The notes beneath the pieces were generated by a model. The model searched no databases, had not been told where the DNA came from, and saw nothing but the letters and a program-made list of their open reading frames with translations. Below are positions 32,546 through 53,594 of a stretch of DNA of 64,000 nt, piece by piece. Both the position numbers and the translations under genes were made by a program. The stretch is from contig BCJX01000020.1 in NCBI GenBank assembly GCA_001600415.1, positions 439,590 to 503,589 on the forward strand, read 5' to 3'. Source of the DNA: Pascua guehoae (Eukaryota > Basidiomycota > Tremellomycetes > Trichosporonales > Trichosporonaceae). Position 1 is the first letter of the stretch. Every line of letters begins with the position of its first letter.

Positions 32546-33154
32546 TGTGGTGGTAATTTCTCGCCCTCTCTGCTTATCTCCTAGCGTCGAAGTTTAGGTT
32601 CACTAGGCTATCCATAGTAATAACTAGAAGCGACATCGGAGTTCATGTCGTTCATGCATCATTCCCTTGGAGCACAACTCTAGTCGGCGAGTACAGCGCA
32701 CGGAGCCCGCTAGTGGCTAGCGGCAAGAGACGAGGGGTCCTACGTGAGTCGGCAACCGCCACGTATGGAGCCCGTTGTTGGTCAACGGTGAGGAGCAAGG
32801 AGCCCGACTCTGGTCGGCTAGTATGACGCATGGAGCCCGCTGTCGGCTAGCGGCTAGGGGCGAGGGGCCTGACTTACTCGACGCCGAAGTGCAACAGAGA
32901 CAGGCACGCAGCCTCTAGCGCTGCCCACGGGGCCCGCCGTCGATCTGTATCGGGGTGCATAGGGGTCCGAGATCAGCCAGCGAAAGCCGCCTGTGGGGCC
33001 CGTCCCCTATCGGCGCTAAAGGTAAAGGGGCCCAACATAGCCAGTGTTGGGGCCCTGTGGAGATTAATAGGTAAGCCAGGTAAGACAGCGGGTAAGAGGC
33101 CGAGTACCTCCCAGAGCAACAGCCCAGTCCTGTCGGTAGGGAAAAACTGCCACA
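32546..33154 (+). repeat. 5' LTR of element 1
   Basis: 609 bp, TGTGGTGGTAATTTCTC to AAAACTGCCACA. Homology with the 3' LTR begins exactly at TGTGG, which sets the boundary. It contains a shorter hairpin array (about 32,670-32,860) than the 3' LTR, so copy number differs between the two LTRs. Confidence 0.85.
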
Positions 33155-33158
33155 AATT

Positions 33159-33176
33159 TGGAGCCCATTATGGGGC
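33159..33176 (+). other. Putative primer-binding site of element 1
   Basis: Four bases after the LTR end lies TGGAGCCCATTATGGGG, starting with the TGG expected to pair with a tRNA CCA end. The cognate tRNA was not identified. Confidence 0.5.
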
Positions 33177-33447
33177 GACGCTCTGGGAAAGAAAGGTTCG
33201 TTTCAGGGGTAGAGGGGATGGAGATTGGGGTCTTGCTACCCTACCTTCCAAATTTCGTGGCAACTGTACTGGGATTGGAAATTGCGAGTCTTGTGGCCAA
33301 TAGTCGACCCTGAGTCGGAGCCCACTGGTCATTGGTACAAGACTGGGGTCTGAGAAGGAGGTGAAGAAGGAGCGCCCGCTTCTTCCCTTTTCGACACACC
33401 ACCACTATCCACCCAGTAAACTAACCAAGAACCAATCCGAGAACACT

Positions 33448-35739
33448 ATGTCATCCGACTCTATTAAGGACAACGCTGTTCGCGACGCGCCGACTTCTGC
33501 ACCTCTGGAGAAGGACGCTCTGCCGCATTGGTTTATGGTTGCAACTGCCATCGGGCAGGATAAGGTAAGTGGTGAGAAGGGGAAAGAGAAGGAGAGGGGT
33601 GAGGATGAGAAAGAGAAAGGGGCTGAAGGTGAAGGTCGGCAGGGGTCCGACATGGGTCATGATGGGATGACCCGGAATGAATCCAAGCTGGGGATTTATC
33701 ACGAAGAGGGAGGAAATAAAAACATCCCCCTAAAAACGGGTTTAGAGGAGCAGCCGCCCCTAAGCCGCGGTGCGCATGCTGCAGTACATGATACTGGCGC
33801 AACCGCAAAAGATGGGAAAAGGCTTGAGCCTCCTGTAGAAGACCGGTCCCACATATATGTGGTGTCTTCCAGTGGCCCTCCCCACCCCAGCCAGAGGGCC
33901 GCTGTACAGTCAGACCAGGAGGGAGAGTGGTACTTGAGTGAAGGACCGTGACCTGCCGAACGCGGTGCAGCAGCCGCTCAGTGGGACCAGTACAGGGAAC
34001 CAGAAGTATTGGCGGAGTCCAAGAGTAGTGGGTCTCGGAACCTCCGAAAAGACGGGTCACCATATGGGACCTGGGAAGAGAGACTCGCCACTGAGCGAAG
34101 GGAGAAGAAGGAGAAGGATGCTCTGGACCCATGGTGGGGGCCGCGGAGACTATACTACGAGAGTCGCCTACCAACCAGGGGAGTTGACTTTGCGAAGATT
34201 GATGCCCTGGCAAAAGGGGATGGAGAATCGAGCAGCAGTGGTGAAGAGGACGTGATAAAAAGGGGTCATAAGGGCAGCATGCCTAATCCTGGGGGTCACA
34301 AGGCGCAAATGTGGGATTGTGACGGAGCCACGCTATCTGACCACTTAAAGTGGTTCAATGACGCTGCTGAATATGCCTGCTTGAGTGATGGGGAGAAGTT
34401 TGATCAGTACCCAAAATACGTGGTGATTGATAAGAGAAACAAGTTCCAGGCCGTGGTGCGAGCAGCCAAGGTGTACACATGGGCACAACTGGAAAAGGAG
34501 CTGAAGGATCGTTATTACGACCCGACGAAGGCTCCGGCCACGGCTAAAGACTTGGAAGAAATGGCCACGCGAAAGGCTAGTAAGGAGGTACGGGATTATC
34601 TGGACATCATCAAATACACGGAGGAGTTTGCACTGGTGGCGGAGCAGTACAGTCGGAGCCCGGAGTATGCCGCTAAAGTGGTGGACCGGTGCTACTATTG
34701 TAGTTTCTCGGAGTCCGTGATGAGATCCCTTCTAATGGCTCATGAAAGCCAATGGAGGATGGAACATCAATGGAATGGGAAGAGTGTGCCCCGGTGGGAA
34801 TGGATGGAAAAGGCACTGAGAGAGCATTACTCCCCTGAGAATGAGATTGCTCAGTTGCGTGCGGATAGTGAAGGGGTGAGACAGAACCGAAGGCTGATGG
34901 CCCAACGGGGAGAGGAGAGCCTCGCCCGCTACCGTGCCAAGGTGGAAGGAGAACGGTTTCTGCAGATTGGAGACGGGGGTAGAATCTTGTTGACTGACGG
35001 TGTGAACGGCTCTCGGCGGGGTGGAAAGGCCATAGGGGTAGATGAGCTGGTTAAGAGCATGACTAAATTGAAGATAGAGCATGCATCGGCCAGCAGGCCT
35101 AAACACAAAGAAGTAGAGCAACTTTATCATGCACGATGGTTGGAGCTCAATCGAGCTCTACCAGAGGCAGGCAAAGCTTGGCCGGAATCGCTCAAGGACA
35201 AGACAATGGATGCCCATCGGGCCCATGAGGCTAAAACGGCGGCTTGGGAGGCGTATGCAAGAGGGGGACCTGGCAGTCAAGCTTATGTGGAAGCTTATAC
35301 CATGGCTGCCATGGTGTCGCCGGAGGCAGCACGAGATTTAGTAGTGCCTGATGTTAGTAAGGCATATCCCTACTCTAAGAATCCGTTGCCAGGGCAGAGT
35401 TTCAGGCCGCCTCGGGCTCCGATGGCTAATCGACCCTGGGTCCCACGGGGCGTGCCCCCAATCATGCCGACACGTCTCGCTCCTCCGGTGGCGAGAGGTT
35501 TCGGAATGACAGTACGACCACCGTTTTTGAAGCCTGCTTTGAAGGCCGAGTCGATGGAGTTGGAGGCACTCTCGGTGGAGGAGCCTGCTCTTGGTCCTCA
35601 AGTCGCTGGGGTTAACCCACGACAGTACATGTGTTTCTGGTGTAGCGAGTTGGACCATTTCCTCATGGATTGTCCTTGGTTGAAGGCATCGATCAAGGTG
35701 GGGTATGTAAAGTATGGCCGAGCCATGTGGGGACAATGA
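33448..35739 (+). pseudogene. Element 1 Gag with CCHC zinc knuckle (one in-frame TGA)
   Basis: The frame from ATG 33,448 reads through a basic and acidic leader to TGA 33,949, then on to TGA 35,737 without a shift. The capsid-like part includes MWDCDGATLSDHLKWFNDAAEY and a conserved-looking DYLDIIKYTEEFALVA helix. The zinc knuckle is CFWCSELDHFLMDC (CX2CX4HX4C, complete) about 30 residues before the end. The stop at 33,949 could be avoided by a 417-nt in-frame intron (GTAAGT at 33,565, acceptor CTCAG at 33,981), so the Gag leader may be spliced rather than broken. The TGA at 35,737 is followed in frame by a continuation (SNPIVWAHDGTLVKWHP) of the kind that normally follows this knuckle, so it is likely a mutated sense codon. 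Confidence 0.8.
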
Positions 35740-36903
35740 AGTAATCCGATAGTGTGGGCTCATGATGGGACCTTAGTGAAGTGGCATCCCGTTCATGGGT
35801 CGCGAAAGGCAACTGTAGATGAACAGGTAGAGAAGGCTCGACGGGCTGCTGTAGCCGAGGCTGCGAACGCTGAGTATTATCAAGACGTGCATGCTCAAGG
35901 ATGGGATGACACAGATGATGAAGATTACCAAGGGGCTGAAGGCCGAGGAGAACCCGCAGGTTGTTACCTGGATGAGGAATCGGACCCCGAAGGTGAGGAT
36001 TGGATGGACGAGGACGAGTACTCTGAGTTTGAAGGAGCAGCAGTGCTGGTCGAGCTGGAAGGGGAGGTCGAGGACGTGGAAATAGGGTCTGCTAGGGCTT
36101 ACCTTGAAGAGCTACTGTTGGATCTGGCCGAAGAAGCCAAGCCCAGTAGGGCAGAGCGCCAGCACGCGTTGCAGGCATTCCTGGTGGAAAGGATTAGGGC
36201 CAGTGAAGTCGAAATGGCAGCAGCGGAGAAGAGAGCGACTGGGATTAGCGGGAATAGACTAAGCCCTTACGAACAGGGGTCTAAAAAGGTGACCTTTGTT
36301 GCTCCACCTCCGACTGTAAAAGCAGGAAATGGGGGTGGGGACCGGCGAGGCCCAGTCACACAGGGGGCGGACCCCAAGTTGGGTGGTCGTCAGATGTTAA
36401 CGAGTGACGGGAGGCCGGGATTGGTTAGCCTCACAGTGCCAGGCAAAGCTGGTACAAAAGTGACCCAGAGCCGTGGTGGCACGGAGGCACGTAAGGAAGC
36501 CAAGCCTCAGCCTCTTAATGTAAAGGAAACGAAGAAAGGGGATGAAAAGGTAGACCATGGTCGGGGAAAGTACTCCACAGTCAACAACAGCTTGACTCAA
36601 GGAGTAGATCGAGAGAAGGTGTGTGAGCGTTTGCTCCAGTCGTCGGCTGGGCATGGGATGGTGTTGACTCTGGCGGAACTGGTGACTCTGTCTCCCTATT
36701 TTGCGCGCTTCCTGGCTCAATCTTTAAAAAGGACAGCGGAACAGACCGCCCATTGTGGGGAAAATGCCGAAGCAGCTGCGGTGGGACTCACGGGGTGTAG
36801 CCAAAGTCTAGAGTGGGACGAAGAGGAAGTAGAAGGAGAAGTACGATCATACTGGGAGCCGCCGCTGTTAGAGGTAGGGGAAGTGGAAGAAAAAGGAGAG
36901 TGA
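35740..36903 (+). pseudogene. Element 1 acidic Gag-protease linker
   Basis: 388 codons in the same frame as Gag, between TGA 35,737 and TGA 36,901. It opens with SNPIVWAHDGTLVKWHP, then is rich in Glu/Asp (YLDEESDPEGEDWMDEDEYS) and Lys/Gly. No catalytic motif. It resembles the variable spacer seen between the zinc knuckle and protease in basidiomycete Ty3 polyproteins. Confidence 0.6.
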
Positions 36904-38031
36904 GAAAAAGGGACGTTCGTGCCTGCCGTCTACTCTAGCAAAGGAAGGATGGGGATGAGTAGGTTGCCACTAGCAGTGCGGACTGCACTGTTGCCATGTA
37001 GGTTGAATGGGGTGGAATGTCGGGCGATGGTTGATGATGGATCCATGCTCAACCTCGTACCCCGAGGAGTGTTTGAGCAGCTCCGAGTCGGACTCTGCAG
37101 CGACATTCGCTTCCGTGTGTCGGGTATTCATGATACGGGTGGAGTCGGGCTGGCGGGCCACTTCACAGCCGAAGTAGAATTTGGTGGTTTGACTACACGT
37201 CATTTCTTTTGGGTAAACGACGCGATGAAGGAGGAGAAAATCTACTTGGGTATGCCATTCATCCTAGCGAATCGAGTAGAGTTCTTCTGGCATGGCCCCA
37301 ACTGAATCATGCATCAACAGACTATGCAAGGGACCTCAGAGTATGCTATGTTCCCGAGCGAGGGACCTGAAATCACAAGGTACAGCAAATCACCCAGCTT
37401 GCAAGCGGAGCGGGGGCGATATGCGTCGGATTTAGCCAACTACGAGGCCGAGCTAGAGTACCTTGGGGCCGCTAGTTACGTCAGTGAGGCTGCCAGCTGT
37501 GACTACTCCGAAGAGGAAGAGGAGGAGTATGAAGTGGCAGGATTGGATGTTGTGGAGGTAGAATTTGAGGATGCACCGGAGGAAGGGGAAGAAACACCGC
37601 GACCGCGCCCGGAGCCCGGACGGGGGACAGAAAGTGATGAGGAAGAAGCATTATGGCGTGCGGCTGAAAAGCTCGGGGAAGAGCTCATGTCCCAAGCCTC
37701 CGCCCAGGTGTGGGATGGGCAGGATATTAATCGAGTCCAGCTAGAGGACATGACCAGCAGGGGATGTCAAGTATTGGAAATTGATATGGGGGCTGAGGAA
37801 GCCACCTATGAGGTAGCGGGAGCTTATAAGCCGGTAGCGAAGAAGCAACACCCCGTGGCTACCACTATGCCTGAGGAGGCAAAGCCCATTCTGAAAGAGC
37901 CCGAGGACATGTGGGCGGACCTGCCAGAAGTAAGCATTGACTACACTAGGCGGGAGGACATACCAGGGGGTGTTCGCCTCACTAAAGAGCGGCAGGAAGG
38001 CCTGTTTGACAGCGATTATGAGGGTTTTTGA
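36904..38031 (+). pseudogene. Element 1 retropepsin-like protease and acidic tail
   Basis: Still in the Gag frame. LNGVECRAMVDDGSMLNLVP carries a DDGS active-site triad in the context of retroviral-type aspartic proteases, followed by LGMPFILANRVEF. One in-frame TGA (37,303) precedes a 240-codon acidic extension ending at TGA 38,029. That stop abuts a GGGTTTT heptamer (38,022-38,028) at the junction with the RT frame. Confidence 0.7.
38022..38031 (+). promoter_or_regulatory. Candidate -1 ribosomal frameshift site (G GGT TTT then TGA)
   Basis: In the protease frame the codons are GAG GGT TTT TGA. The heptamer fits X XXY YYZ, and slipping back one base enters TTG ACT GAG GAG, the open frame that leads into RT. 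A downstream pseudoknot was not modelled; a simple one-base indel is the alternative. Confidence 0.45.
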
Positions 38032-41000
38032 CTGAGGAGGAAAAGTGTATGATGGTCGTCGTCCTCCTCAGAAATGAGACGGCATTGGCATGGATGGAAG
38101 ACGAGAAGGGTGGGTTCCTAGAAGAGTACATACCACCGCACAAAATACCGGTGGTTGAACATGAGCCCTGGCGCGATCGGAATCTCTGTTTGCCTATAAC
38201 AACATGAGCAAAAGTAATAGCCTTCCTAAAAGAAAAGTTAAGGAATGGACTTTATGAGCGTTCACAGTCAAGCTACAGATCGGGCTACTTCGCAGTGGAA
38301 AAGAAGGACGGGAGAATCAGAATTGTTCATGACTTGCAGAAACTTAACTCCATCACTATACGAGATGCGGGGGTGCTGCCTTTGATGGATGAGATGACAG
38401 AAAACTTGGCGGGTAGTCAGATATACACCAGCCTAGACGCCTTTGCAGGGTATGACCAGTTGGCCTTGCACCAGGACTCTAGAGACTTGACCACGTTCGA
38501 GAGTCCTATTGGTACCCTTAGGCTGCGGCGCATCCCTCAAGGGTGGACCAATGCGGTGGCGGCCTACCAAAGGGTGATGACATTCATATTTGCGGAACTA
38601 ATACCCGAGGAGGTGTGTGTCTACGTCGACGACGTTACCTTGAAGGGGTCCAAATCGCTATTCCAAGACGCTACAGGGGGTCCGGGGAAACTTCCCGGTA
38701 AGGACATACGGAAATTCGTTCACAAACATGCTATGGGCCTAAACCGCGTATTGCATCGCATGAAAAGGTTCGGTGGAACGTTTTCAGGGGCAAAGATTCA
38801 TTTAGGGGTGCCAGAGGTTAAAATGGTCGGGTACATGATCTCTGCAAAGGGTCGCCGTCTCACTAAAAGCGCGATAGCAAAGCTATTGAAGTGGCCTCCT
38901 TGTGCTACTCCCACCGATGCGCGCAAGTTCTTGGGTCTGGTGGGGCCCGGTCGCAGTTGGGTTAAAGGATATGGGCAGATTGCGCGGCCCATTGTCCAGT
39001 TAACCAGGCAACTACTTGCCAAAGAATTCAAGTGGACAGCAGTCCATCAAAGGGCTATGGATGAGATCAAGCGGCGCGTAGCCGCGAGTGACTGGATTAC
39101 GCCAATAGACTATGATCGTGCAGATGAATACCTGCCCATAGTCGCTATTGATGCCAATACTACGGGATGCGGAGTGGAGTTAGCTCAGATGGGTCTGGAC
39201 GGCAAGAGACACCCAGCGAGGTTCTACAGTCTGTACTATAACGCTACTCAACAAGGATATAGCCAGCCTAAGCTCGAGCTGTTTGGTATTTACGTGGGAC
39301 TGCGCGCGGTACGTTACCACATCCACAATACTCAGTTCATTCTGGAATCCGACTGTATATCCATTAAACAGATGATAAACTCCCCTTTTCTGCCCAACGG
39401 CCCTGAAGCCAGGTGGTGTTGGTACATTAAGCTTCACGACTTCATCTTTAAGCACGTCCCTGGAGAGCGTCACCGGGTTCCGGATAGCTTGTCGCGGCGT
39501 CCGAGAGCGGAAGATGATAGTGATGATACGGACCCCGAGGAGTGGCTGGACCAAAACTGTGGTGCTGGGGACGCCGAGACTGTGAACCCTGACGTTGATG
39601 ATGTTCCGTTCCAGGAGGCCTTGTATGAGAACAATGAGGACTGGTTGGCTATAGGACAATTCTTGGAAGGAAAAGGATGGCCTGAGCGCCTGTTGCGCCC
39701 AAGGGTCCGGAAACTCAGGGCTTTGGCCAAATATTGCCACCTTGAACAAGGCCGTATATGGAGGCGCAAGGGATACTGCCTACCTACAGAGGTTGTCGTG
39801 GATAAGGCGCGTCAAAATGAAATCCTTAGGATGAGCCATGAAGAAGCGGGTCATTACGGTGGAAAGAGTATGTACCTGAAAGTCACTGAACGGTTCTATT
39901 GGCGAGGGCTGAGCGAAGATTGTAGGCAGTGGCGCAAGTCATGCCCCGACTGTCAAGCGCGAGACTATAGGTTCTATGAGAACCCGTGAATGAGCATACA
40001 TATACCAACCATATTTGGGAAGGTCAACATCGACTGTGTCACGATGGGGGCAGATAATAGGGAAGAAGCCGGTGGTACTAAATACATAGTACTGGCTCGG
40101 GATGACCTGACGGGCTGGGTAGAAGGTAGAGTCGTGCCAGACTTGAAAGCCGAGACGATAGCAAGATTCTTCTTTGAGGACGTAATTACACGATACGGGC
40201 TCATAGGACAAGTCAGTATGGACCAGGGATCGGAGTTCAGAGGCGAGTTTGAGAGCCTCCTCCGTAGTTGGGGAATTCACTACATCTGAACCTCCCCTTA
40301 TCACCCGCAAGGGAACGGAGCGATTGAACGAGGCAATGGGCCAGTAAAGGAACTATTGTTCAAGCTGGCTCGCACGCGGACTCCAGATTGGCGAAGGTTG
40401 TTGCCGCTGGTTTTATGGGCAGATCGTACCACATCCAAACGGACAACTGGATACACCCCTCACTTCCTACTGTATGGGATGGAAAGCGTACTGCCCATAG
40501 ATGCCAAGTTTGAGACTTACATGACCACCCATTGGCTGGATGGCATGACCACGGCACAGCTGTTAGAGGCGCGCCTGAATCAGATAGAGAGGAAGCCAGA
40601 AGATGTTGCTCAGGCGGCCACTCTTTCGCGAAAGGCGAGGCAAGACGGTATTCGGAAACACAATGAGGACTTCAAGCGGCAACAGAAAGACCGGGTGTTT
40701 AGAAAGAATGACTTGGTCCTGGTTCGCAATTCTAGACAGGACCAATCTCACCAAGCAAAGCGTGAGGATCGATATCTGGGCCCATATAGGATCTTGACCT
40801 TCCACCAGAAAGGGGCAGTAAGCCTGGCAGAGTTGGATGGAACACCAATCCTAGACAAAGGATTGGCACATGTGGGCCATAACAGATTGCGCAAATATTA
40901 CTCACAGAAGGTAATGACTGCCGACGTGGAACAAGGGCGGAGCCCGGAGAGAGAAGTGATTGACATGCAGGGCCCGGTAAGGTCGGTAGCCAGACCTACA

Positions 41001-41042
41001 ATTGGTCTGGGGGATTCTAGCCAGTTGCCAATGCATGATTAA
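38032..41042 (+). pseudogene. Element 1 reverse transcriptase, RNase H and integrase (three in-frame TGAs)
   Basis: A single frame runs from the frameshift site to TAA 41,040, broken only by TGA at 38,205, 39,987 and 40,287. RT: ERSQSSYRSGYFAVEKKDG, RIVHDLQKLNSITIRDAG and the catalytic VYVDDVTLKG. RNase H: AIDANTTGCGVEL and KLELFGIYVGLRAVRYH. Integrase: zinc HHCC (HEEAGH...CPDC), then catalytic Asp in VNIDCVTMG, Asp in MDQGSEFRGEF and Glu in GAIERGNGPVKE. No chromodomain is seen at the C-terminus, unlike elements 2 and 3. Catalytic residues are all kept. The stop at 38,205 sits where related RTs have Arg, and 40,287 (GIHYI stop TSPYHPQ) where they have Lys/Arg. Confidence 0.88.
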
Positions 41043-41172
41043 GCTTTAGTCCATTACCAATAACTTGGTTGTGGAGCCCGAGGTCGGCTCCATAAACGTC
41101 TGGGGGAGAAGGAAGTGAAGGATAAAAGGAAAGAGAGACGGATGGGCAAGAGAGAAAAACTCACGACGCAAG

Positions 41173-42227
41173 ATGATCACAACCAGTGAATGGCCAAACC
41201 AGAACCCGGACATGTCGGCCTTGTCGATCCAGTCGCCGCCAGTTACCCCATCCCAGTCGCAGACGGGAGAGCAGGGCCATGCAAGTACCACGTTGAACGA
41301 GGACACGACGTTCCAGCTCATGGGTGAAGTCACCTCTGCGGTAGTGGCCTCGGACTCCATCCACATGAACATGGACATGGACACGGAGGTCAGTGAGGGT
41401 ATGGACTAGGAGTGTAGAAATCCAAAACTCACCTCTATGGGCAGGCCACCCCTTCCGTCATGTCGCCCCCAAGCCTCGCAAGCGTAGTGGAAGCGCTGTC
41501 GCCCCAAATGGACTATGGTCCCAACGACCATGTGCCGATTGTCGAGGTGGACCAGTTCTTTACAAAGAAAACGGATGCCACGGTGACTTGCGCATTTTGT
41601 GGTTCGACCCATGACTCTGCTAGGTTCCCATCTTCATCCAACCGGTACCTGTGCGTAATCGTATGCTGGATCGAGGTCCAGTGGGGGCAGGATAACTTTC
41701 ACTACTCTGTTGACCCCTACGGGCCTTTCTGGTTCAACACGGGCAACATCCGCGAGCCCATCTACCGCTTCGAGGGAGAGCTGCCCATCATTGCATGGCT
41801 GCGGTTTGAGCGTCACATGTGAGCCAACTGGTACGAATGTCTGGACAACAAGCCCAACTATCTCATCAGGTACGGGACCCAGCTCTTCACCGTGATGGGT
41901 TCCCGAGACTTCCAGTATGTGCGTGTACTCCTCAAGAAGGGAGAATCATCCCACAACGCAGTGGCGACCAGGACGCTGGAGGACCAGAAGAGGATGGCGA
42001 TGACCTTGCTCCTCTCGGGGTGGAACATCACTCACCATACCCATCGGATCCCGCATCCCTCGGTGGGCCAAGGGAAGCACACGAAACTTCGTTACGATGA
42101 GTGTCCGGCTCGGCCAGTGCCCACGTGGCGCACCGACAATCACGCGGGCCCGACATATGGTGGTGCGGGTAGGAGGCAAGGGAAGAATCAAGCCTTTAGG
42201 CTGAGTAGGAAGAATGGAGGGTGGTAG
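41173..42227 (+). pseudogene. Element 1 spliced sense ORF after pol, unknown function (one in-frame TGA)
   Basis: Two exons, 41173-41388 and 41445-42227, the intron having GTCAGT and GGGCAG ends. The joined frame encodes about 332 residues with one TGA at 41,820 and ends at TAG. The N-terminal 90 residues are Ser/Thr/Pro/Met-rich. The middle holds TVTCAFCGSTHDSARFP (a CXXC-X3-H arrangement that might bind zinc), followed by aromatic-rich text (VCWIEVQWGQDNFHYSVDPY). The C-terminus is basic and Gly-rich. No known family was recognised; an env-like or nucleocapsid role is conceivable but unsupported. The frame is conserved across the stop, so it was coding until recently. Confidence 0.6.
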
Positions 42228-42432
42228 ACGGCAGGAGGTCGAAAAGAGAGAATGTACAGTACAGTACCATGACAGGGAAATGAATTGGGTGCGGAAACAA
42301 ATGGGCCGGAGTCCGCGAGCGTAATGCTATTTGGGAAAACGGAGTGCGGGGGAGAAACCTAATTACATTTCGGGTATTGCTACTAACTTGACAACTGGGT
42401 ATAAGAGAGACTATGGATACAATATGAATGGA

Positions 42433-43938
42433 TTAGGGGTTGGCCGCTGCGGCTGCTGCTGCAATTAGAGCCGCCTGACGAGCGTCCTTGCATTGACGAC
42501 GAGCAGTGATGCGAGGACAGACTTTCTCAAGCCAGCACTTCACCTTCTCCAAGCCACCATCGTACTTGCTGTGAGGGGCAGCATCGGAGTCGTTGTCACT
42601 GCTGTCCCCGTCGCTACTATCATACTTCTCGAAAGGCTTAGTGACAGGCAAAAACCAGGAACCAAGACGCAGAGAGAGGATATCGTTGGCGTCTGGCCAA
42701 AATGGGCAACCACTGTCGTAACCGAGGAGGACTTTGTCCTTGCTGTCGCTGTCGTCTGCGGAGGGCTCGGCGACAAGGGCCGGACAGTACGAAAAGGGAG
42801 GGGCACCAAACTGGTACATGGTGTGCGAGGTCTGACCAGGAAGGAGGAATGCAGCAGGTGCGCCCGGGATCCAAGGCGGGTAGCGGGCCACTTTGGCCCA
42901 GACGAGGAGGGGTTCCGGAAGAAAAGGGGGAGGGATGGGATATGTCTCCCAATGAAGAATGGAGACGCGGACAGTGGGGAGGGCTGCCTGCGCGAAATCG
43001 AGGTGCTTTAACACAAACTCGCAGAACTTGGCCCGATCTGCGGAGTTGTCAGGTGGTTGGCGCCGAGTGACAAAGTGTGACAACTGAGCAGAAATCTCGG
43101 CGATTACTGCGCGCTTGTGCTGCAGAAAGGTAGGGGTGAACGAGCATGCTCCGGGGGGACACTGTCCACAAGCGTTAGGGAGGAGCTCGGCGGAAAAGGG
43201 GCAGCAGTACTGCAAAAGTTTGCACCACGCGCAACGGCGACGACCGTAGATAATCTCCCAATCGCGAGAGGGGAAACGTTCCTGGAAGGGTCAGTGGACA
43301 CCAAAGGCAGGCAAGAAAAGGGGGGGAGAGGAGCAAGTCAGCTTACCTTGATGTCGAGAGAGATCTGGGGCGCCGAGAGCGCTTTGTCCTCCTTGACACG
43401 TGCAGGGAGCCCCTTGCGTCGGCGGCTGGAACCCGGAGTCAACTTGTCACGGGACCCGGAGGCGGAAGGGGTCACCTCCTCTTCCTCGTCATCCTCCTCC
43501 TCCTCGTCTACTTCCTCCATGGCAAAATCCTCCTCTTCGTCTTCCTCTTCCTTGTCCTCTTCTCCATCGTCCTTGACAAGGAATGGGGATTTGGGGTCTG
43601 AAAGAATCAGCAGAAGAAGCGGAGGGGAACGGTAGAGGGTCGCAAGAAAGACAGCTTGACTTACCAATAAAGTCTTTGAGGAACTTGGACCGTTTACGAG
43701 AGGGCGAAGCCATCAGATTGGAGACAGCTTTACGGTGGTCGGGATTCATGCGTGTGATAGTCTGGGCATGGTCAGGGACCCAAAACAGTGAGGTTAGTGT
43801 TGGGGAGCACACAACGTACCGCAAGAAGCTTTTTCGACTCTTTGAGTTTGGCCTTTTTAACATCTGCGCGAGGACTGAGCTGCGAGTGTGTGAAGCCTTC
43901 TGCTTCCCCTTGTCCTTCTTGGTCGATTTGGGCGCCAT
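42433..43938 (-). CDS. Element 1 antisense spliced gene A, cysteine-cluster protein
   Basis: Complement of 42433-43281, 43347-43597 and 43665-43938; intact, 457 aa. An optional intron in the first exon (donor GTTGTG) would also be in frame. The N-terminus is basic (MAPKSTKKDKGKQKASHTRS). Residues ~100-140 are strongly acidic (EEDKEEEDEEEDF). A cysteine block follows: C192, C195, C202 (CX2CX6C) then C213, C216, C221 (CX2CX4C), closing CSF. After that come a predicted helical segment, a Pro-rich middle and an acidic/Ala tail. Coding is antisense to gag-pol of the host element and lies between pol and the 3' LTR. The clusters resemble C6 zinc clusters in spacing but lack the usual Lys/Arg loop, so DNA binding is uncertain. 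Function unknown. Confidence 0.72.
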
Positions 43939-45638
43939 TGTGGAAGAAGTGATGAAGAAAGGAGGGTGTGTAAAAGAGGAGGAGCGAAATGGACCAGAGG
44001 GGAGAAGAAGAGGAGGGGCGAGTGGGAAAGATGGGGGTGGGAGCTTGGTTGGGGGAGAATGGGATGAAGTAGGGGCGAGTGGGAGAGGGGCTTTTAATAC
44101 GTTGAGGAAACGGGGAGGGAGCGAGAGTGAGCTGTAAGATGGAGTGCGAGTGGGGTAGGGGGAATAATAGTGGGAAGTGGTGTGATAAGGTGTGAGTGGT
44201 GAATGGAGCCCGTGCGAGTTAGGGGCAAGTTGACAAACATAGTGGAGCTGGCCGCACGAGGAACAAGGTGGAAAGGGGGTGTGATGAGAGGTGAATGGCG
44301 CATGTTGACAAGAGTGGTGGCGCTGGCCGCACGAGGAACAAGGTGGAGAGGGGGCGTGATGAGGTGTGAATGGCGCGTGTTGACAAGCGTGGTGGAGCTG
44401 GCCGTATGAGGAATAAGGCGGAGGGAGGGGGCGTAATGAGGCGTGAATGGCGCGTGTTGACAAGCGTGGTGGAACTGACCGCATGAGGAATAAGGTGGAG
44501 AGGGTGTGATGAGGCGTGAGTGACGAATGGAGCCCGTGCGAAGCTAAGGGAGAAGCAATAAACATGATGGAACGAGCCGTGCAAGGAATAAAGCGAAGGA
44601 GGCATGATGAGGCGTAAGTGATGATTGGAGTCCGTGCGAGGCTAGGGATGGGTTGATAAATGTGATGGGACGAGCTGTGCGAGGAATAAAGCAGAGGAGT
44701 TGTGATGGGAGGTGTGATGATGGGGTCTGTGTGATGATGGGGTCTGTGTGAGGTTAAGAAAAAGGGGACGGATAGGGTGGAGCAAGTTGCGAGAAGGACA
44801 GGAACGGAGAGCATGGTAGTACAGCGTGCTTGGCAAGTGGGGTCCGTGTGAGACCAAACTGGGGTGACAAATAAGGTATGAGATAGGCCGCGAGAAGGAC
44901 AAGAACGGAGAGCATGGTAGTACAGCGTGCATGGCAAGCGGGGTCCGTGTGAGACCATACTGGGGTGACAAATAAGGTATGGGATAGGCCGAGAGAAGGA
45001 CAAGAACAGCGGAGCATGGTAGTAAGGCGTGCATGGCAAGTGGGGTCCGTGTGTGGCCGAAGTGGAGTGACAAATAAGGTATGGGACAGGTTGCAAGAGG
45101 GACAGGAGTGGAGAAGCAGGGGTAGTAGGGCGTGCACGGGAGTTAGGTCTGTGTAAGATGGTGACAAGTTGGGAAGGCCGAGCTGTAAGAAGGATAGGGG
45201 CAGAGAACTTTGGTGAAAGGGTGCACAAGGAACAGGGTCTTGGCGTTACGCATGAGGTTAGCTGCAAAAAGGGGATGGAAAAGGAGTATAGTGAGGGTGA
45301 TGCAAGTGTGTGGGACGGAGCCCGTGTGAGACTAGGGTTGGGGGAAGCCAGACCATGGATGGACGAGCTGTGGAGGGTAGAGGGTTGAAGGACAAGGGCG
45401 AAGCATGAGCAACAAATGGGGTCCAAGTGTAGTTGTATGAACTTCGGGTGGAATGGAGTTGTTGAATGCTACGGAGTATAGGCCAGGAGTGGGACATGCT
45501 GAGAGGCTGAACAAATGCATTGACAACACAAGCGGGACGGGGAGCTACAGGATGGTGGCTATGCTACACTGCGGGACCCGAGGTGCCGGAACCCTGGGCT
45601 TTGGAGGCGGCCTCACGACGGGCCTTCTCGTCCTCTTC
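43939..45638. repeat. Tandem-repeat spacer between antisense genes A and B
   Basis: From about 44,165 to 44,640 a ~76-bp unit repeats (anchor GTTGACAAG at about 44,303, 44,379 and 44,456). From about 44,780 to 45,140 a ~104-bp unit repeats (anchor TGACAAATAAGGTATG, three copies). The plus strand is purine-rich throughout. The long minus-strand open frame across this stretch is a by-product of stop-poor repeats. It may act as promoter space for gene A. Confidence 0.7.
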
Positions 45639-47221
45639 TTAGATGCGTTTTTCCTCCTTTGCCTCGTCGTAGACGCGCAGCATAAACTTGGCCTCGGAGG
45701 CAGACTTGTACTTGCGGGTGTGGCGAGCTGCCTGTGCACGGCTGTCCATGAACTTCCCATTGGGCTCGGGAGTAGGAGCAGGGAGGTCTGCCACCACAGC
45801 ATCGTGAGAATAATGGGAGCCTTGAGTAAGGGTCTTGGTGTTACGCATGAGTTCGAGGGCCAAAGGGAGGCGAAGGTCTGCCTGGACCTTGGGAGAAAGG
45901 GAGATAGCCTCCTGGAGTGGAACCAAGGAAGCTTGGTGAGCACGAGGAAGGATGGACAGAGGACCGGGGTGGAAAGTGCAGGGGACCTTGCCCTTTTTAC
46001 AGGGCGTGCACGAGTCTTCCGGGTTCTTGACGTTGCCCCAGCAGGTAATGCCCAAGTTCCGGCAGTGGGCACAGGCCGCAGTCGGGGGCAGGACAGCATG
46101 CATGGGAAATTCCTTAGCCCAATTGACCTATCAGTTAGTAAAAGGGGCGACGGAAGGATGGGGGGAAAAGGCTCACGTCTGCAAAGCGGACCTGCATCTT
46201 GTCGCTCCCGTAAGAGGTCCACGCGCAGAGTTTCTCATGGTCGGCAGGGGACAAATCCTCCTGTGTATGGAATGGGTCCTCTTTCTCTTCCTCCTCAGAC
46301 TCTTCGGACTCCGAAGGGAGCCGAGGGGAAGGGGTACGGAGGTTCACGTCGACCGGCCGGATGCGGCGTTGGTTGGGGGTGACGACGGTAGGGGCCGGGA
46401 ACGGGCTGTTGGGCACAACGTCAAAGCGATCAATCCAGGCTAAGAAGGCAGCCGGGTCAATGGAGTGGAGAAAATGGTTGAAGGCCTAGGAGTTAGAGTG
46501 ACCGGAATGGTACAGGCAAAAGGTGTGAAGGTTGAGACTTACTCGGTGGCAGGCGTAGTGCTCTTTTCGGAGTTTGACGTAATGGCAAAGGAGCCAAGCC
46601 GCCAGTATCTTGCCTGAGGCTGTGGAATCGGTAGAGGAGCAAGGCCCAAGGACTCGATCCCAAAGACGGCAAAAAGTCGCGACAGAAGGTCTGGAAGGAA
46701 CAGATGAAAGAGGGGCGTGGTGAGCAAGGGGAGAGAAGGGAAAGAGTAGGAAAGACTCACTCCTCGATGTCATCCTTGCCGTTGTCGGCGAATAGGCCCT
46801 GGAAGAGCGGGAAGGAAAGGACCTGTGTCCAGAAAAGACTCCAAGAAACCAGAGCGGCAGAGCGCACACGCGTAACCGGATGGTAAATGTGAACAAAAGG
46901 GTTCTTCACAGGGTCCTGTACAAGCTAGGGGGGGGGAGGGGATTAGTGACTGGAGAAGGGTGGTGACCGGAGTCCGCTCACCTTGGTCTTGAGATCCTGC
47001 ACGATTTCCACCAGAGCCTCGACCACGGCATCATCATCTGTGGTTGCCACCGCTTTAAAGTCGATGCCGCGGAGGGCATCTTCGAGTGGCTTGGTGCGAG
47101 CCATGACGGTCTTGAGGTCGGGGGCGGGGTGAGTCGGGAGGATATCCGCCTTGATCTGAGTAAGGACCGAGCGATCCGTGTAGCCGTAAATGGTAGAGAG
47201 GGAAAGGGGGTTGGCAGCCAT
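45639..47221 (-). CDS. Element 1 antisense spliced gene B, paired CX2CX6C protein
   Basis: Complement of 45639-46127, 46177-46485, 46543-46690, 46761-46924 and 46982-47221; all five exons join in frame, 449 aa, no stops. The N-terminal half is helical (MAANPLSLSTIYGYTDRSVL, VTRVRSAALVSWSLFWTQ, KILAAWLLCHYVKLRKEHYA). An acidic Ser/Glu stretch (ESEESEEEEKEDPF) follows. The C-terminal part has a full binuclear-cluster spacing: C306, C309, C316 (CAHCRNLGITC), 10 residues, C327, C330, C337 (CTPCKKGKVPC), then TFHPG and a helical tail rich in Lys/Arg. The pattern matches Zn(II)2Cys6 clusters, but the cluster is C-terminal, unlike ordinary fungal regulators. Antisense to element-1 pol. Function unknown; a regulator or nucleic-acid-binding role is inference. 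Confidence 0.75.
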
Positions 47222-47709
47222 GGTGATCGAGAAAGCGTGGTTCTGAAGGGAGAGGCGACTAATGAAAAGGGGGTGAGAAAAGGGGATGGTAGTGGGATGG
47301 AATTGAGGAGGGAAGGAGGCAATGGTGGGGTCTGCTTATAAGCCGAAAGGAAAGGGGTGGGAACAGGTTAGTTGGTAGTGTGATAGAAACGTGGGACGAG
47401 TACACGGAAGGGCGAGGGTGACAAACAATGCGTGCATACCGAGAAGCTAGCTTGTGATGATACTGGAAAGAAAGTGACGGGGCTTGAGAAGCAGGGTGAA
47501 GTCAGTGCGAGGGTAGGGTGGAGGTTTCGGGTAGTCGCCTTGGCTCGCGAGCGGGGGGGGGTGGAGAATGAATCGAGGAGGGCGTGGGTGTGATCGAGGT
47601 GGGGTGTAAACCTTGAGAGGGGAGGTGTGATGAGGAGGTGAGAAAGACATGAGTGAGTGGAAAAGTGTGTGATGGAGGCAAGAAGAGGCGTCGAGTGGCT
47701 TGAGTGGCG
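47222..47709. other. Gene B upstream region
   Basis: About 490 bp, purine-rich on the plus strand (so pyrimidine-rich on the coding strand of gene B, as in its neighbours' promoters). No further ORF with support. Confidence 0.4.
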
Positions 47710-48065
47710 GGGCCTGAGCGAGGATGGGCCGATCTAGCTTGGACCCCGGGGGCAGATTGAGCCGAGCGAGGATGGGCCAATCTAGCTTGGACCCCGGGAG
47801 CAGATTGAGCTGAGCAAGAATGGGTCGATCTAGCTTGGACCCCGGGAGCAGATTGAGCTGAGCAAGGATGGGCCGATCTAGCTTGGACCCCGGGAGCAGC
47901 TTGAATCAAGCGTGGATGGTCCAATCTAACACGGACACCAGGAACAGATTGACCCAAGCATGTATAATTCAATCTAGCGCAGACAGCAGAAGTAGAATGG
48001 CCTGGACAAGGATTAACTAGTCCAGCACGGACACCTGGAGTGGAATGGCCTGGGTAGAGGCTGAC
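47710..48065. repeat. 48-bp tandem array before the element 1 3' LTR
   Basis: About seven units of 48 bp with core GATCTAGCTTGGACCCCGGG. Copies are near identical on the left and progressively diverged towards 48,060. A reversed, diverged version lies at about 31,820-31,994 in the family-1 fragment. Confidence 0.85.
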
Positions 48066-48447
48066 TCGTCTAAGTGAGGTCGTTGGAGGTGGAATGGTTT
48101 GGGGGAGTCGGCTTGCCTGTGTGGATCTCGAATAAAGGAGGTGCATGATTGCCGGGTGAACTGGCATCAGGCGTGACGGGTTTTGTGCGGATTCCGAGGG
48201 TAAAAAGTGGACTAGCTACTACTGTTAAGCGGTCAAGTTCGGACTGTGGAGAGTGAAGGGTGAACTTGTTCGGGGAGGGCTGGTTGAGGAAGAGGGAGGG
48301 CGAGGACTGAGTACTGCAGTAACGATGTGCCCAGTAAGTGTAAGGCCTTACTAGGCCCTGGGGTGCTCGATCCCTCGTAAACGAGAACATTAAGAGGTAA
48401 AGAGATCACCAGGGTCGGAGGGCCGACCCACTGGGGCGCTTGTGAAC

Positions 48448-49740
48448 TGTGGTGGTAATTTCTCGCCCTCTCTGCTTATCTGCTAGCGTCGAAGTTTAGG
48501 TTCACTAGGCTATCCATAGTAATAACTAGAAGCGACATCGGAGTTCATGTTGTTCATGCATCATTCCCTTGGAGCCCGACTCTAGTCGGCGAGTACAGTG
48601 CACGGAGCCCGCTAGTGGCTAGCGGCGAGGGGCGAGGGGTCCGACGTGAGTCGGCAACCGCCGTGTGCGGAGCCCGCTGTCGATCAGCGGCGAGGATCAT
48701 GGAGCCCGACTCTAGTCGGCGAGTACAGCNNNNNNNNNNNNNNNNNNNNNNNNNNNNNNNNNNNNNNNNNNNNNNNNNNNNNNNNNNNNNNNNNNNNNNN
48801 NNNNNNNNNNNNNNNNNNNNNNNNNNNNNNNNNNNNNNNNNNNNNNNNNNNNNNNNNNNNNNNNNNNNNNNNNNNNNNNNNNNNNNNNNNNNNNNNNNNN
48901 NNNNNNNNNNNNNNNNNNNNNNNNNNNNNNNNNNNNNNNNNNNNNNNNNNNNNNNNNNNNNNNNNNNNNNNNNNNNNNNNNNNNNNNNNNNNNNNNNNNN
49001 NNNNNNNNNNNNNNNNNNNNNNNNNNNNNNNNNNNNNNNNNNNNNNNNNNNNNNNNNNNNNNNNNNNNNNNNNNNNNNNNNNNNNNNNNNNNNNNNNNNN
49101 NNNNNNNNNNNNNNNNNNNNNNNNNNNNNNNNNNNNNNNNNNNNNNNNNNNNNNNNNNNNNNNNNNNNNNNNNNNNNNNNNNNNNNNNNNNNNNNNNNNN
49201 NNNNTCGGCAACCGCCGCGTGCGGAGCCCGCTGTCGATCAGCGGCGAGGATCATGGAGCCTGACTCTAGTCGGCGAGTACAGCGCATGGAGCCCGCTATT
49301 GGTTAGCGGCGAGGGACGAGGGGTCCGACGTGAGTCGGCAACCGCCGCGTATGGAGCCCATTGTTGGTCAACGGCGAGGAGCAAGGAGCCCGACTCTGGT
49401 CGGCAAGTATGACGCACGGAGCCCGCTGTCGGCTAGCGGCTAGGGGTGAGGGGCCCGACTTACTCGATGCCGAAGTGCAACAGAGACAGGCACGCAGCCT
49501 CTAGCACTGCCCACGGGGCCCGCCGTCGATCTGTATCGGGGTGCATAGGGGTCCGAGATCGGCCAGCGAAAGCCGCTTGTGGGGCCCGTCCCCTATCGGT
49601 GCTAAAGGTAAAGGGGCCCAACATAGCCAGTGTTGGGGCCCTGTGGAGATTAATAGGTAAGCCAGGTAAGACAGTGGGTAAGAGGCCGAGTACCTCCCAG
49701 AGCAACAGCCCAGTCCTGTCGGTAGGGAAAAACTGCCACA
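48448..49740 (+). repeat. 3' LTR of element 1 with assembly gap
   Basis: TGTGGTGGTAATTTCTC to AACTGCCACA. Contains a hairpin array (48,555-49,470) interrupted by 475 N (48,730-49,204). Its right end is followed by ACGT, the duplicated target, then by the remainder of the element-2 LTR. Confidence 0.85.
48555..49470 (+). repeat. Hairpin-array satellite in the element 1 LTR
   Basis: Units of ~65 bp alternate two hairpins, one with a 5-bp stem CCGAC/GTCGG and one with a 6-bp stem of the CCGCTA/TAGCGG type, each preceded by GGAGC or GGGGT. At least twelve hairpins are visible outside the gap. Confidence 0.88.
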
Positions 49741-52700
49741 ACGTCACGTGATTGTCGGTCATGTGATTTCGACACCGCGTAGAAACGACTAAGTCGTCCA
49801 GATCGTGACACTGCCCCCCTGACAGAGGGGCCGAAGTCCCGACGGGCCTCGTTTATCGATATCGACAGCGTCGACAGGATCGGGCGAGGTAAGTCGTTTC
49901 GTTGGATCGGTTTGCCGGGTTTCGTTTGTTCAGTGACGCTTGCGCCGTCGCTTTGGAGCGGGAACAGGGGGAAAGAAATGCTCCGGGTTGTCCTTGTTGG
50001 CCTTGTAGAACTCACGGAATGCTCCCACATTCTTGATCGCGTGGTAGGGTTCCCATGAGTCTTCGTAGTCGGGAAAGCCATGCCAATGGATAAGGTACCA
50101 ATACTTATCCTCCTCGTTCTCTTCATCATGCTGAGAGTCGAGGACCTTGTCGACATACCATTCGGGTTCGCCGTCAACATGGATCGGGGGCTCAGGTTCC
50201 TGACGCTGGCCGGGCAAGGGCGGTTTGGCTGGGCGGAACAACTGCACGTGGAAGACAGAGTGCAGCCGTTGCAGCTCGGGAGGAAGATCGATCACCCACA
50301 CCAATGGTGACTTGGTCGGGGCGAGGATCTTGTAGGGGCCGAGGGCGACGCGGTCAAGCTTGAACAGTGGTCGGAGTGACGTGATGTTCTTGCNCTTGAG
50401 GTAGACGAGGTCGCCCTCCTTGTAGGGTGGAGCTGGTTTAACCTTNCGGTTATAGAACTCCGAGTGACGTGCTTGCGCTGCCTTGATGTTCTCCTTGAGG
50501 GTCTCGCGGAGAGTTGCAATCTCATCGAGGCGGCGTTGCGCAGCCGGAACGTTGGCCAGACGGACCGGGGTCGTGGGGTCCACGGGGTTGAAACCGTGGA
50601 GGGTGAAGAACGGGGAGACCTTGGTTGACGATTGGATAGTGTTATTGTAGGCAAACGCGGCAATCGGCAAGAGGCACTTCCAGTCCGTGTACGTCGCGTT
50701 GACGTGGTGCCGCAGATAGTGGATGATAATCTGAATGAGACGCTCAGTTTGCCCATCGGTCTGCGGGTGCCAGGCCGTGGACAAGGCGGACTTGGTGCCG
50801 AGTGCATCAAAGAAGGCACGGGTGTAACGTGACGCATTGAGGGGGCCCCGGTCGGAGACGATATCCAGAGGCATGCCATAGACAGAGAAGACATGCTTGA
50901 TCGTCAGTTCGACCAGGTCTTCTGCGGTGAAGCCCTTTTCCTTGAACGGGGCGAAAACTGCAAACTTGGTAAGGCGACAGATCCAGAACATGATTGAATC
51001 GTTGCCGTCTTCGTCGGGTGGCAGTTTNGTCAGTGCGTCCATGGCAAGAGAACTCATGGGACGCAAAGGAATGGGGAGNGGTTGCAGAGGTCCAAATTGC
51101 CGCTGGCGCCAAGGCTTGTTCCANTTACAGGTGTGACAGCCGGCGCAATAGGCATCGATGAACTTGCGCATCGCGGGGAAGTAGAAGTAACGGCTGACGG
51201 CGGCAAGAGTTTTTGCACTACCGGGGTGGCCAGCCGTGGGAACGTTATGAGCCTGGTAGACGATGTCNAGTTTAAGTTGATGGTCGTCAGGCATGAACAG
51301 GAGGTTGGAAAAGAAGAGAAGCTCGTCGTGCACTGAGAAAAACTCGAGATCATCGTCGGCCAGGTCGTCCGGAGGAGACTCCTCAGGGTGCTGCAGAGCA
51401 TGGATCAGCTGCTGACAGCGTTCGTCNTTGTCTTGGGCTCTGCGCAGCCGCTCGACAATGTCGGAATGAGGAGGGTAGTNGTCAGGGTTGTCTTCGTCGG
51501 CGTCTTCCTGTTCAGGGGGTACAGGGGGATCGTCGACGTTCTCCGGTTCCGACTCGACCTCGGGGATGGGTTCAAGGTCAAGCTCTGGTTCCTGGGGGAT
51601 GCTCGCGGCCTCTTTTCTGGTGCCGCTTCGGGTGCGAGCCATGGTAGCGACAGCAGGGGGAGGGGTTTCGGCTCGATCGGGGTCAAAGAACAACCGGGGT
51701 TCAGCTTCCTTTGCTTTCGTGCCAGGCTGAAGGTCATGCCGGCGCGAGAGAGCATCGGGCTTCACCATCTGCAAACCCTTCTTCCACTTGATGGAGAAGT
51801 CAAAGGGCATGAGCAGTTCGATGTACTGGTTTTGACGCCGATTCCATGATCTCTCGGTGAGGAAGTACTCAAGGTTGTGGTGGTTGGTGAACACTTGAGT
51901 ATCGTGAGCGTACGCAAGGTAGTGGCGCCACTGCTTGAAGGCTTCGATGATGGCAAGCATCTCCTTGTCGTGCGTCTTGTAGTTGAGCTGAGAGGGAGTG
52001 AGCTTTCGGGAAAAGAATGCAATGGGAAGGAGGTGGCCGTCGTCGTCGCGCTGGGAAAGGACAGCAGCGATGGCGAAGTCAGATGCATCAGCTTCGATGA
52101 ACAGCTGGCGCAGGGGGTCGAACATCCTCAACACTGGGGCGACAGTGAAACAGTGTTTGAGGAAGTCAAAGGCTTTCTGCTCTTCTTCGGTCCAATGCCA
52201 AGCGCGCCCTTGCTGCGTGAGGCGGTGCAGCGAGAGTATGATCTTAGCGTAGTTGTGGATGAACCATCGATAGAAGTTGCAGAAGCCAAGGAAGGAGCGG
52301 ACGTGTCGGATCGTGGTTGGAACGGGCCAGTCGAGGATGGCAGCGACTTTTGTCGGGCGTCATGCCAAGCTCGCCATGGCCCACGATAAATCCGAGGAAG
52401 CGTGTCCGNTCGGTGAAGAACTCGCACTTCTCAGCCTTTGCGTAGAGACAGTGCGTGCGGAGCTGCTCGAGGACCTCTTTGGTGTCTTTGATGTTGTCCT
52501 CGCGCNAGTCGGAGTGGACCAGGATGTCGTCTAGGTATCCGACGGTACACCTGTCCAGGAGCTCACTGCCGATAGCCTCATTGATGAGGTTCTGGAACGA
52601 GGCAGGAGCGTTGGTCAGTCCAAATGGCATGACGAGGTACTCGAATTGCCCTCTGGACGTGACGAAGGCGGTCTTCCACTCGTCGTCTGGTCAGATGCGT

Positions 52701-53594
52701 ACAAGGTAGTACGCTGAACGCAGGTCGATCTTGGTGAAGACCTTGCCGGCACGGAGTCTGTCAAGGACGTCGTCCATGCGAGGGATGGGGTATTGCCATT
52801 TGATGATGTGCTCATTCATCTGGTGATAGTGGATGATGGGCCGAACGCCGACATCGTCATCCTTCTTGCTGACAAAGAAGAGGGGAGCCGTGGTAGGGGA
52901 CTTGGAGGGACGGATGTACCCCTTGGCAAGCAATTGATCGAAGTAGTCTTCAGCAATTGCTGCCTTGCGGCTGGCGAAACGGTAAGCTTTGCGCTTACCC
53001 GGGAACTTGCTCTCGTCCTTGAGGTCGATCGCATGGTCGTAGTTGGTGTGTGCCGGAAGGCGATTGCTGTTGGTCTTCGAAAACATGTCGAGGTAGTCGT
53101 GGAACTCGACGGGCATGACCTTGGCAATCTCGTCGCGATCCGGCACAAAGGTGGAGAGTGGGTCATCGTAGTCATCGGGATCGGGGTCGGTCAACTCGGC
53201 GCTAGCGCACTCGAGGTCCAGACCAGAATCGAGAGACGTGACTAGACCCGTGGAGGAGTAGGCGAACGGTTGGGCAGGAACAGCATCATCCTCATGTTGG
53301 AGCAGAAGGAAGGAGGCTGCTGAATGTGGGTACCACATCAGCATCTCAACCTCCTCTGGTTCCTCAGAGTTGAGTTTGCTCCCGTCGTCGGCTAACTCCG
53401 ACATGGCGGCAGCACGTGGCGTGGGTTCCATAGTCGTGGCCACGGCCGCAAAAGCGGGCGGAGGGGAAACGAGCGATAGCAGAGGAGCAATGCCATCACT
53501 CAGGAAGCACGGGAGTAGTTGTTGCATAAAGGCTTCAACTACTTGCTTCGGGACAGGGGTATTGGGCTTGTCACACTTCGTGAACTTGACTTTG
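49741..53594 (-). mobile_element. Element 2: chromodomain Ty3 element, 5' truncated in this window
   Basis: Reads right to left. The 3' LTR remainder is 49,741-49,810, preceded on the coding strand by a polypurine tract (AGGGGGGCAG at 49,811-49,820), with pol above it. At 53,594 it is cut by the LTR of element 3, so gag and the 5' LTR are absent here. Ten isolated N characters lie within pol only. Confidence 0.8.
49930..53527 (-). pseudogene. Element 2 pol: RT, RNase H, integrase, chromodomain
   Basis: RT begins with PVEFHDYLDMFSKT and NRLPAHTNYDHAIDLKD, then KDDDVGVRPIIHYHQMNEH. It is interrupted by TGA at 52,691 in [19 protein letters not shown], where relatives have Arg/Lys, and continues in the same frame through [11 protein letters not shown] and catalytic [11 protein letters not shown]. 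One extra A near 52,350 shifts the frame inside GMTPDK. The following 734-codon frame is open: RNase H (EADASDFAIAAVLSQ), integrase zinc domain, catalytic Asp (LAMDAL), Asp (VSDRGP) and Glu (DGQTERLIQ), and a C-terminal chromodomain (DKYWYLIHWHGFPDYEDSWEP) with a basic tail. The chromodomain would target heterochromatin marks. Two lesions only, so decay is recent. Confidence 0.9.

Follow-up and report, generated by a model that had tools for sequence, protein, structure and literature searches.

Predicted multi-exon genes antisense to gag-pol recur in diverged families of a Ty3 retrotransposon lineage of Pascua guehoae

Two antisense genes in a Ty3 element

Within a 64,000-nucleotide stretch of DNA from the basidiomycete Pascua guehoae (the window; contig BCJX01000020.1, or C20:439590-503589), a Ty3 retrotransposon, which we call element 1, carries two predicted multi-exon genes, A and B, on the strand opposite to gag-pol. 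Both lie downstream of pol and of an accessory open reading frame (ORF), ORF3, and before the 3' long terminal repeat (LTR), as an earlier note on the window had placed them. By comparison of copies across the fungus's own genome (33.6 Mb in 28 contigs), we show that genes predicted in this way occupy the same place between ORF3 and the 3' LTR in at least three diverged families, and the pattern of codon substitution shows that the encoded proteins, as predicted, have been kept under purifying selection. The copy in the window is itself damaged, and the evidence for the two genes comes from the comparison of copies that we describe here.

Recurrence of the genes among copies of the lineage

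The earlier note had expected other copies of the element to carry the same genes, and this was borne out. Protein searches found gene A at 12 loci and gene B at 11, and a twelfth B (C4:525k) was seen as a tail within a fetched locus. The matches in these searches (20 for B, 19 for A) were confined to loci of these elements. B lies upstream of A, in the same direction, in 11 of the 12 A loci. The exception, at C10:16.4k, has no B, its match to the window ending before B is reached; one B locus, on C16, has no A. ORF3 was found at 13 loci, among them all 12 of the A loci, and A adjoins it in 12 of the 13. The complete order from gag to B was read in two family-2 copies (C26:1-14k and C6:80-94k), and in the remaining copies the order was placed from search coordinates or read in part.

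The lineage has 17 reverse transcriptase (RT) copies, two tiny fragments (C8 and C15) not being counted. A lies directly downstream of RT in nine of them. In two more, at C3:2739k and C4:544k, search and read coordinates place A beyond an inserted element of family X, a chromodomain-bearing Ty3 element. The A-B locus on C12 has no RT of its own among the search matches.

Conservation of introns between families

The copies belong to three diverged families, between which identity is 66-72% in RT-RNase H, 38-55% in ORF3 and 34-44% in the core of A. In a single comparison, the B proteins of the window and of the family-2 copy C3a were 22% identical over 400 residues (E 1.7e-16). Introns 2, 3 and 4 of B lie at the same alignment places in these two copies, with phases 2, 0 and 0, and fall at nucleotides 404, 552 and 861 of the coding sequence (CDS) in the window and at 404, 546 and 861 in C3a. 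The quoted phases rest on C3a and the other copies on alignment, in which the same three sites are visible in further family-2 copies. A pattern search for these introns in six family-2 and family-3 copies found all three in C3a, the last two in four more and one in C3b.

Gene A gave a comparable result. By inspection, the position of its last intron, directly before the exon that encodes the cysteine cluster, is constant across 11 aligned copies, as is the phase of 0. The other two introns of A are not common to the families, and the first intron of B belongs to family 1 only. The conservation of B introns 2-4 and of the last A intron between families agrees with the proposal of the earlier note that introns can be kept when they are antisense to gag-pol.

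Selection on genes A and B

On this strand, open frames are poor evidence of coding, because dinucleotide shuffles of the minus strand can reach a stop-free run of at least 285 codons (24 of 200) and because the longest open run, of 659 codons, lies mostly within the spacer between A and B. Stop codons are scarce here because pyrimidines make up 0.55-0.71 of the minus strand, depending on the part considered, from A up to the stretch ahead of the 3' LTR. Codon evolution gives strong evidence.

For gene A, the ratio of nonsynonymous to synonymous substitution rates (dN/dS) was 0.14-0.25 in six pairs: 0.14 (0.08-0.21) between the window and C12, and 0.15-0.25 in the other five. For gene B, the two diverged pairs gave 0.13 (0.06-0.26; window and C12) and 0.17 (0.08-0.29; C26 and C3b). 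The bootstrap upper limits of these informative A and B values were all below 0.35. Similar values were obtained for RT (0.14-0.25 in three pairs); in a wider set of comparisons, RT rows in which different elements are mixed in one stretch (L045, C10r and C16r) were left out. The earlier note had held that a dN/dS near 1 would speak against its reading, and the range of 0.13-0.25 in the informative pairs is far from that value. Over all rows of families 2-4, A gave 0.16-0.57 in 36 pairs; pairs that involve the C4 family approach saturation and gave 0.33-0.41 for A and 0.40-0.73 for B.

Differences accumulated mainly at third codon positions, with counts at positions 1, 2 and 3 of 47, 33 and 117 for A and 12, 12 and 41 for B between the window and C12, and of 17, 15 and 50 for B between C26 and C3b. 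In the A-B spacer, used as a control, dN/dS was 0.66-1.09 on the gene strand and 0.46-0.74 on the opposite strand, with flat position counts and no codon periodicity; the pair of window and C12 aligned poorly there (46% identity). Low dN/dS (0.18-0.22) was also obtained for the mirror frame on the strand opposite to A and B, because the wobble position is common to the frames of both strands, but this frame contains 2-11 stops per sequence. The dN/dS values, the codon periodicity, the conservation of introns and the recurrence at 12 places together make a strong case that the predicted genes A and B are more than chance.

The window copy and its decay

As judged by alignment with other copies, the window copy is decaying on both strands, with A and B both damaged. 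The six introns first proposed are all GT..AG, and their splicing yields proteins of 457 and 449 residues as the earlier note had stated. However, its description of A as an intact gene with two introns, and of B as intact, did not hold. Aligning the C10 and C12 copies revealed a third intron in A and, relative to both, a one-base indel that shifts the frame in exon 1 (C12 was used for intron sizes only and not for exon-1 length). The 457-residue reading of A is open by coincidence alone, because its frame runs out of phase through the unspliced third intron. A premature stop ends gene B about 25 codons earlier than in the aligned C16 copy.

The sense strand had been credited with seven stops in gag-pol. 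Six of these are premature, and the seventh is the terminator of gag at an apparent -1 frameshift site (38022-38031), where a five-T run lies between the stops of the pol and gag frames; the site is also present in the C26 and C6 copies. The single premature stop reported for ORF3 was found. The earlier note had contrasted stop-free antisense genes with a stop-ridden gag-pol. In about 930 codons, A and B together have a single stop and a single indel, against six stops in about 2350 codons of gag-pol (with gag-pol indels uncounted), so they are not clearly better kept.

Among the differences of the window, C16 and C10 copies, transitions make up 120 of 139 and 156 of 197, and CpG<->TpG/CpA changes account for 36-40% of all differences. 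TGA is the codon at each of the seven premature stops that the window copy has in gag-pol and ORF3. This bias towards transitions and CpG sites, taken with the TGA stops, suggests decay of the element copies through methylated cytosine.

Structure and surroundings of element 1

Element 1 extends from 32546 to 49740, or 17.2 kb in window coordinates including a run of N within the 3' LTR (Table 1). It has the TG..CA LTRs and short target duplication (4 bp, ACGT) of a Ty3 element (Metaviridae), and Pfam domains in the order gag, protease, RT, RNase H and integrase, the last represented by its zinc-binding domain. Its best PDB sequence match is Ty3 Gag-Pol (7q5b, E 2.8e-38 for pol). A Pfam scan of the integrase end (40290-41039) gave no match to a chromodomain, and the integrase core was likewise undetected there. 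The alignable parts of the two LTRs are 92-95% identical, and units of a 65-bp tandem repeat are more numerous in the 3' LTR. ORF3 contains a CxxC..H stretch, gave dN/dS of 0.15-0.35 in five pairs of other copies, is 84% identical between the window and C12 (tblastn), and may have a further exon upstream and, with it, a sense intron.

The insertion site of element 1 is a family X element, split at GTGACGTCAC. When joined in silico, the flanks of element 1 match seven fetched places, four of which differ solely by the 4-bp duplication and represent empty sites. Family X in turn appears to interrupt copies of the lineage at C3:2742k and C4:547k. Upstream of element 1, at 30427-31581, lies a partial inverted copy of its LTR and 3' flank with 65-bp units. 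Near the window end are a pol frame of Ty1/copia type (1015 residues, 60442-63489) and another Ty3-type pol fragment (58165-59712).

On each contig concerned, the RT copies of the lineage (17 in all) occupy a single zone together with other Ty3 elements: C3 2739-2769k, C4 531-589k, C6 0-90k, C10 11-41k, C12 434-478k, C16 34-36k, C20 478k and C26 7-90k. These retroelement islands may be centromeres or places where contigs break. A search for three repeats of the telomere motif TTAGGG gave 0 matches, compared with 10 for the reversed control, which leaves a subtelomeric reading of their placement at contig ends unsupported.

Table 1. Features of element 1 and its flanks, in window coordinates
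Feature	Position	Strand	Remarks
Family X flanks of element 1	31995-32545 and 49741-53594		chromodomain Ty3 element at 49933-52359, minus strand
5' LTR of element 1	32546-33154	+	609 bp, TG..CA
gag-protease frame	33952-38031	+	Pfam Retrotrans_gag, Asp_protease_2; 3 premature stops
pol (RT, RNase H, integrase)	38022-41042	+	Pfam RVT_1, RT_RNaseH, Integrase_H2C2; 3 premature stops
ORF3, conserved accessory frame	41418-42227	+	one premature stop
Gene A (predicted)	42433-43938	-	exons 43938-43820, 43761-43665, 43597-43347, 43281-42433; frame-shifted in exon 1
Gene A, intron directly before Cys-cluster exon	43282-43346	-	GT..AG; place and phase 0 kept in family 2 (inspection)
Gene A, intron	43598-43664	-	GT..AG
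Gene A, third intron	43762-43819	-	58 nt; GT..AG in window, C10 and C12; overlooked in first reading
A-B spacer	43939-45575		tandem arrays of 75, 98 and 101 bp units; no coding signal
Gene B (predicted)	45636-47221	-	exons 47221-46982, 46924-46761, 46690-46543, 46485-46177, 46127-45636; premature stop
Gene B, intron 4	46128-46176	-	phase 0, place kept in family 2
Gene B, intron 3	46486-46542	-	phase 0, place kept in family 2
Gene B, intron 2	46691-46760	-	phase 2, after CDS nt 404 in window and C3a
Gene B, intron 1	46925-46981	-	seen in family 1 only
48-bp tandem array	47666-48049		between gene B and 3' LTR
3' LTR of element 1	48448-49740	+	TG..CA; spans run of N, 818 readable bases, full length not readable

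The encoded proteins

The predicted proteins A and B have in common a module of the form C-x2-C-x6-C-x10-C-x2-C-x(3-7)-C-[ST]-F; comparison of the two modules by hhalign gave E 9e-4 over 49 columns at a probability of only 23%. The fungal-type Zn2Cys6 cluster (PF00172) follows the pattern C-x2-C-x6-C-x(5-12)-C-x2-C-x(6-8)-C. The spacing in B, C-x2-C-x6-C-x10-C-x2-C-x(6-7)-C, fits this pattern in eight of nine aligned copies, C3a being without the third cysteine. In A the last spacing is 3-4, outside the pattern. Beyond this weak likeness to Zn2Cys6, we found no regulator domain in B, and TRP28 (PF04195) had no Pfam match in A or B. Family 1 A proteins contain basic and acidic stretches, and those of family 2 have an RGG- and Pro/Ala-rich N-terminal part and a long Lys/Ala/Glu C-terminal part. 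In a PDB sequence search, the matches of A were limited to the Lys/Ala/Glu part in family 2, while B gave LEU3/GATA at E 0.6-0.8.

No homologues of A, of B or of an alignment of A were found at E <= 0.01 in a collection of 5.8 billion proteins, possibly with few fungi in it; these searches scored only the 7992-7996 candidates that had most words in common with the query, and acidic low-complexity words may have displaced true relatives. Viral contigs gave no match for either protein, and bacterial and archaeal genomes, searched with A only, gave none. A natural guess would be that A and B are nuclear proteins that bind nucleic acid or chromatin.

Possible roles of A and B

We give about an even chance to the proposal that this is an ambisense Ty3 lineage, in which A and B are nuclear Cys6 proteins that tune LTR-driven sense transcription. 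Both genes would already have been present in the common ancestor of the families. A putative antisense promoter upstream of B, in or beside the 3' LTR, would give rise to transcripts that the host splices, and the introns would persist through retrotransposition, since the genomic RNA contains them in antisense orientation. The predicted proteins, with their common and presumably metal-binding Cys6 module, would act in the nucleus on element DNA or chromatin. Their most likely action would be the tuning of sense transcription, in the manner of HBZ of human T-cell leukemia virus type 1 (HTLV-1) and as proposed for GENE23 of Grande and TRP28 of Retand; the element's own LTR or its tandem arrays are possible targets. 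Recurrence, the depth of the families, low dN/dS, conserved introns, the common cysteine module, the likeness to Zn_clus, the charged stretches and the tandem arrays all count in favor of this proposal. A bolder version seems to us doubtful, if still conceivable: that the sense ORF3 and two related antisense Cys6 nuclear factors would form a complete accessory set and a self-regulatory circuit comparable to Tax and HBZ, a circuit that would have arisen independently of retroviruses and of the plant elements with antisense ORFs (aORFs).

Several results weigh against this proposal. Six of the 17 RT-bearing copies have no detectable A; because five of these six are also without ORF3, they have probably lost their 3' part. 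The Zn_clus score of B is under the Pfam gathering cut-off (17.1 bits for the exon and 15.2 for whole B, compared with 21), Zn_clus matches occurred in two of nine B members (E <= 0.5), and A members had no Pfam match except for one of eight (TFIIA, E 0.075). The last exons of A and B gave poor structure models (mean predicted local distance difference test, pLDDT, of 53 and 48), for which Foldseek found nothing at E <= 0.001. The close B pairs were uninformative, at 0.50 (0.18-1.51) for the window and C16 and 0.44 (0.16-1.49) for C26 and C6a, and in families 2-4 the dN/dS of B ranged from 0.13 to 1.17 over 28 pairs, one of them above 1 (1.17). The earlier note had concluded that the element carries its own regulators or targeting proteins. 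That it has antisense genes of its own stands; the role is still conjecture, with the Zn2Cys6 score of B under the cut-off.

Targeting, the other role named there, we consider unlikely. If A, B or both were tethering factors that guide the integration complex to heterochromatin, this would explain why the lineage has one island per contig: its 17 RT copies fall into eight zones on eight contigs (with the tiny C8 and C15 fragments elsewhere), a scan of the readable integrase end gave no chromodomain, and chromatin binding is conceivable for proteins with a cysteine module. However, the same islands hold other Ty3 elements, including the chromodomain-bearing family X, so the confinement of the lineage may reflect selection against insertions elsewhere. 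It is rather improbable that A and B shield the element by counteracting host silencing through RNA interference or DNA methylation. Viruses are known to have accessory genes with such a role, and CpG<->TpG/CpA changes (56 of 139 and 70 of 197 differences between copies) make host modification plausible, but no similarity to a suppressor was found and the sequence gives no pointer in this direction. A structural use of cysteine-rich modules, in particle components or nucleic-acid chaperones akin to nucleocapsid, would fit with ORF3 being another small conserved accessory frame; we think it improbable, since antisense genes with introns would be expressed apart from gag and the Cys6 spacing differs from that of the CCHC knuckle.

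Two further explanations are already disfavored. Antisense LTR transcripts can work as RNA, according to the sections of PMC10186651 and PMC7264820 that treat them, and the antisense RNA might be the functional product here, with the proteins incidental. The dN/dS of 0.13-0.25 and the excess of third-position differences in the frames of A and B, absent from the spacer, disfavor this explanation, which we regard as very improbable. Recent capture of host genes, or a separate nested transposon, would account for introns and cysteine clusters that resemble those of host regulators, yet own-genome matches lie only within these elements, and A adjoins ORF3 in 12 of 13 loci in families with about 70% RT identity, leaving little room for it.

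Comparison with known systems

Antisense genes have been described in plant Ty3 elements, namely GENE23 in Grande of maize, an aORF in RIRE2 of rice and TRP28 in Retand of Silene, according to the passages on these elements in PMC7264820 and PMC11963269. The same passages report tandem arrays in the region between pol and the 3' LTR of Retand, and a proposed DNA binding; element 1 likewise has tandem arrays between pol and its 3' LTR. The proteins of A and B are different from those of the plant elements and the host is a fungus; A has three introns and B four, and a sense ORF3 accompanies the two genes. The word 'intron' occurs 0 times in the main texts of the two papers, whereas A and B have introns.

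Closer in host is brtn, the antisense gene of Boty (BcGypsy1) in Botrytis cinerea and Sclerotinia (Zhao et al. 2011, as cited in PMC7264820). In Boty, which is also a fungal Ty3 element, an antisense gene likewise lies between pol and the 3' LTR, but Boty comes from ascomycetes, its gag-pol has a chromodomain (as PMC4227169 describes it) and it has one such gene; the likeness is one of described arrangement. The earlier note knew of no described fungal case with spliced cysteine-cluster genes. For antisense genes as such, brtn makes a statement of this kind too strong; no fungal Ty3 element with spliced ones appeared among the matches listed in the open-licence literature searched.

Spliced antisense regulators are found in deltaretroviruses, where the part of PMC10186651 on HBZ of HTLV-1 and on APH-2, APH-3 and APH-4 gives a promoter shown in the 3' LTR. 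Element 1 resembles them in that its 3' end bears antisense genes, predicted to be spliced, for putative regulators. HBZ and the APH proteins belong to infectious retroviruses and are bZIP or other proteins, and we do not claim homology with A or B. As to Zn2Cys6 regulators (PF00172), B has their cysteine spacing but a score below the cut-off, and the last spacing of A sets it apart.

Antisense accessory genes of plant LTR elements have long been known with their function unassigned, and among fungi brtn alone turned up in the literature searched. Codon evolution now marks two such genes, with introns conserved between families, as having been functional, and since tests are easier in fungi than in maize or Silene, the role of antisense accessory genes becomes directly testable. 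The case also illustrates how introns can persist in a retroelement through opposite orientation. Compared with these systems, the lineage of element 1 represents the known antisense arrangement with seemingly unrelated proteins, two genes, conserved introns and a fungal host.

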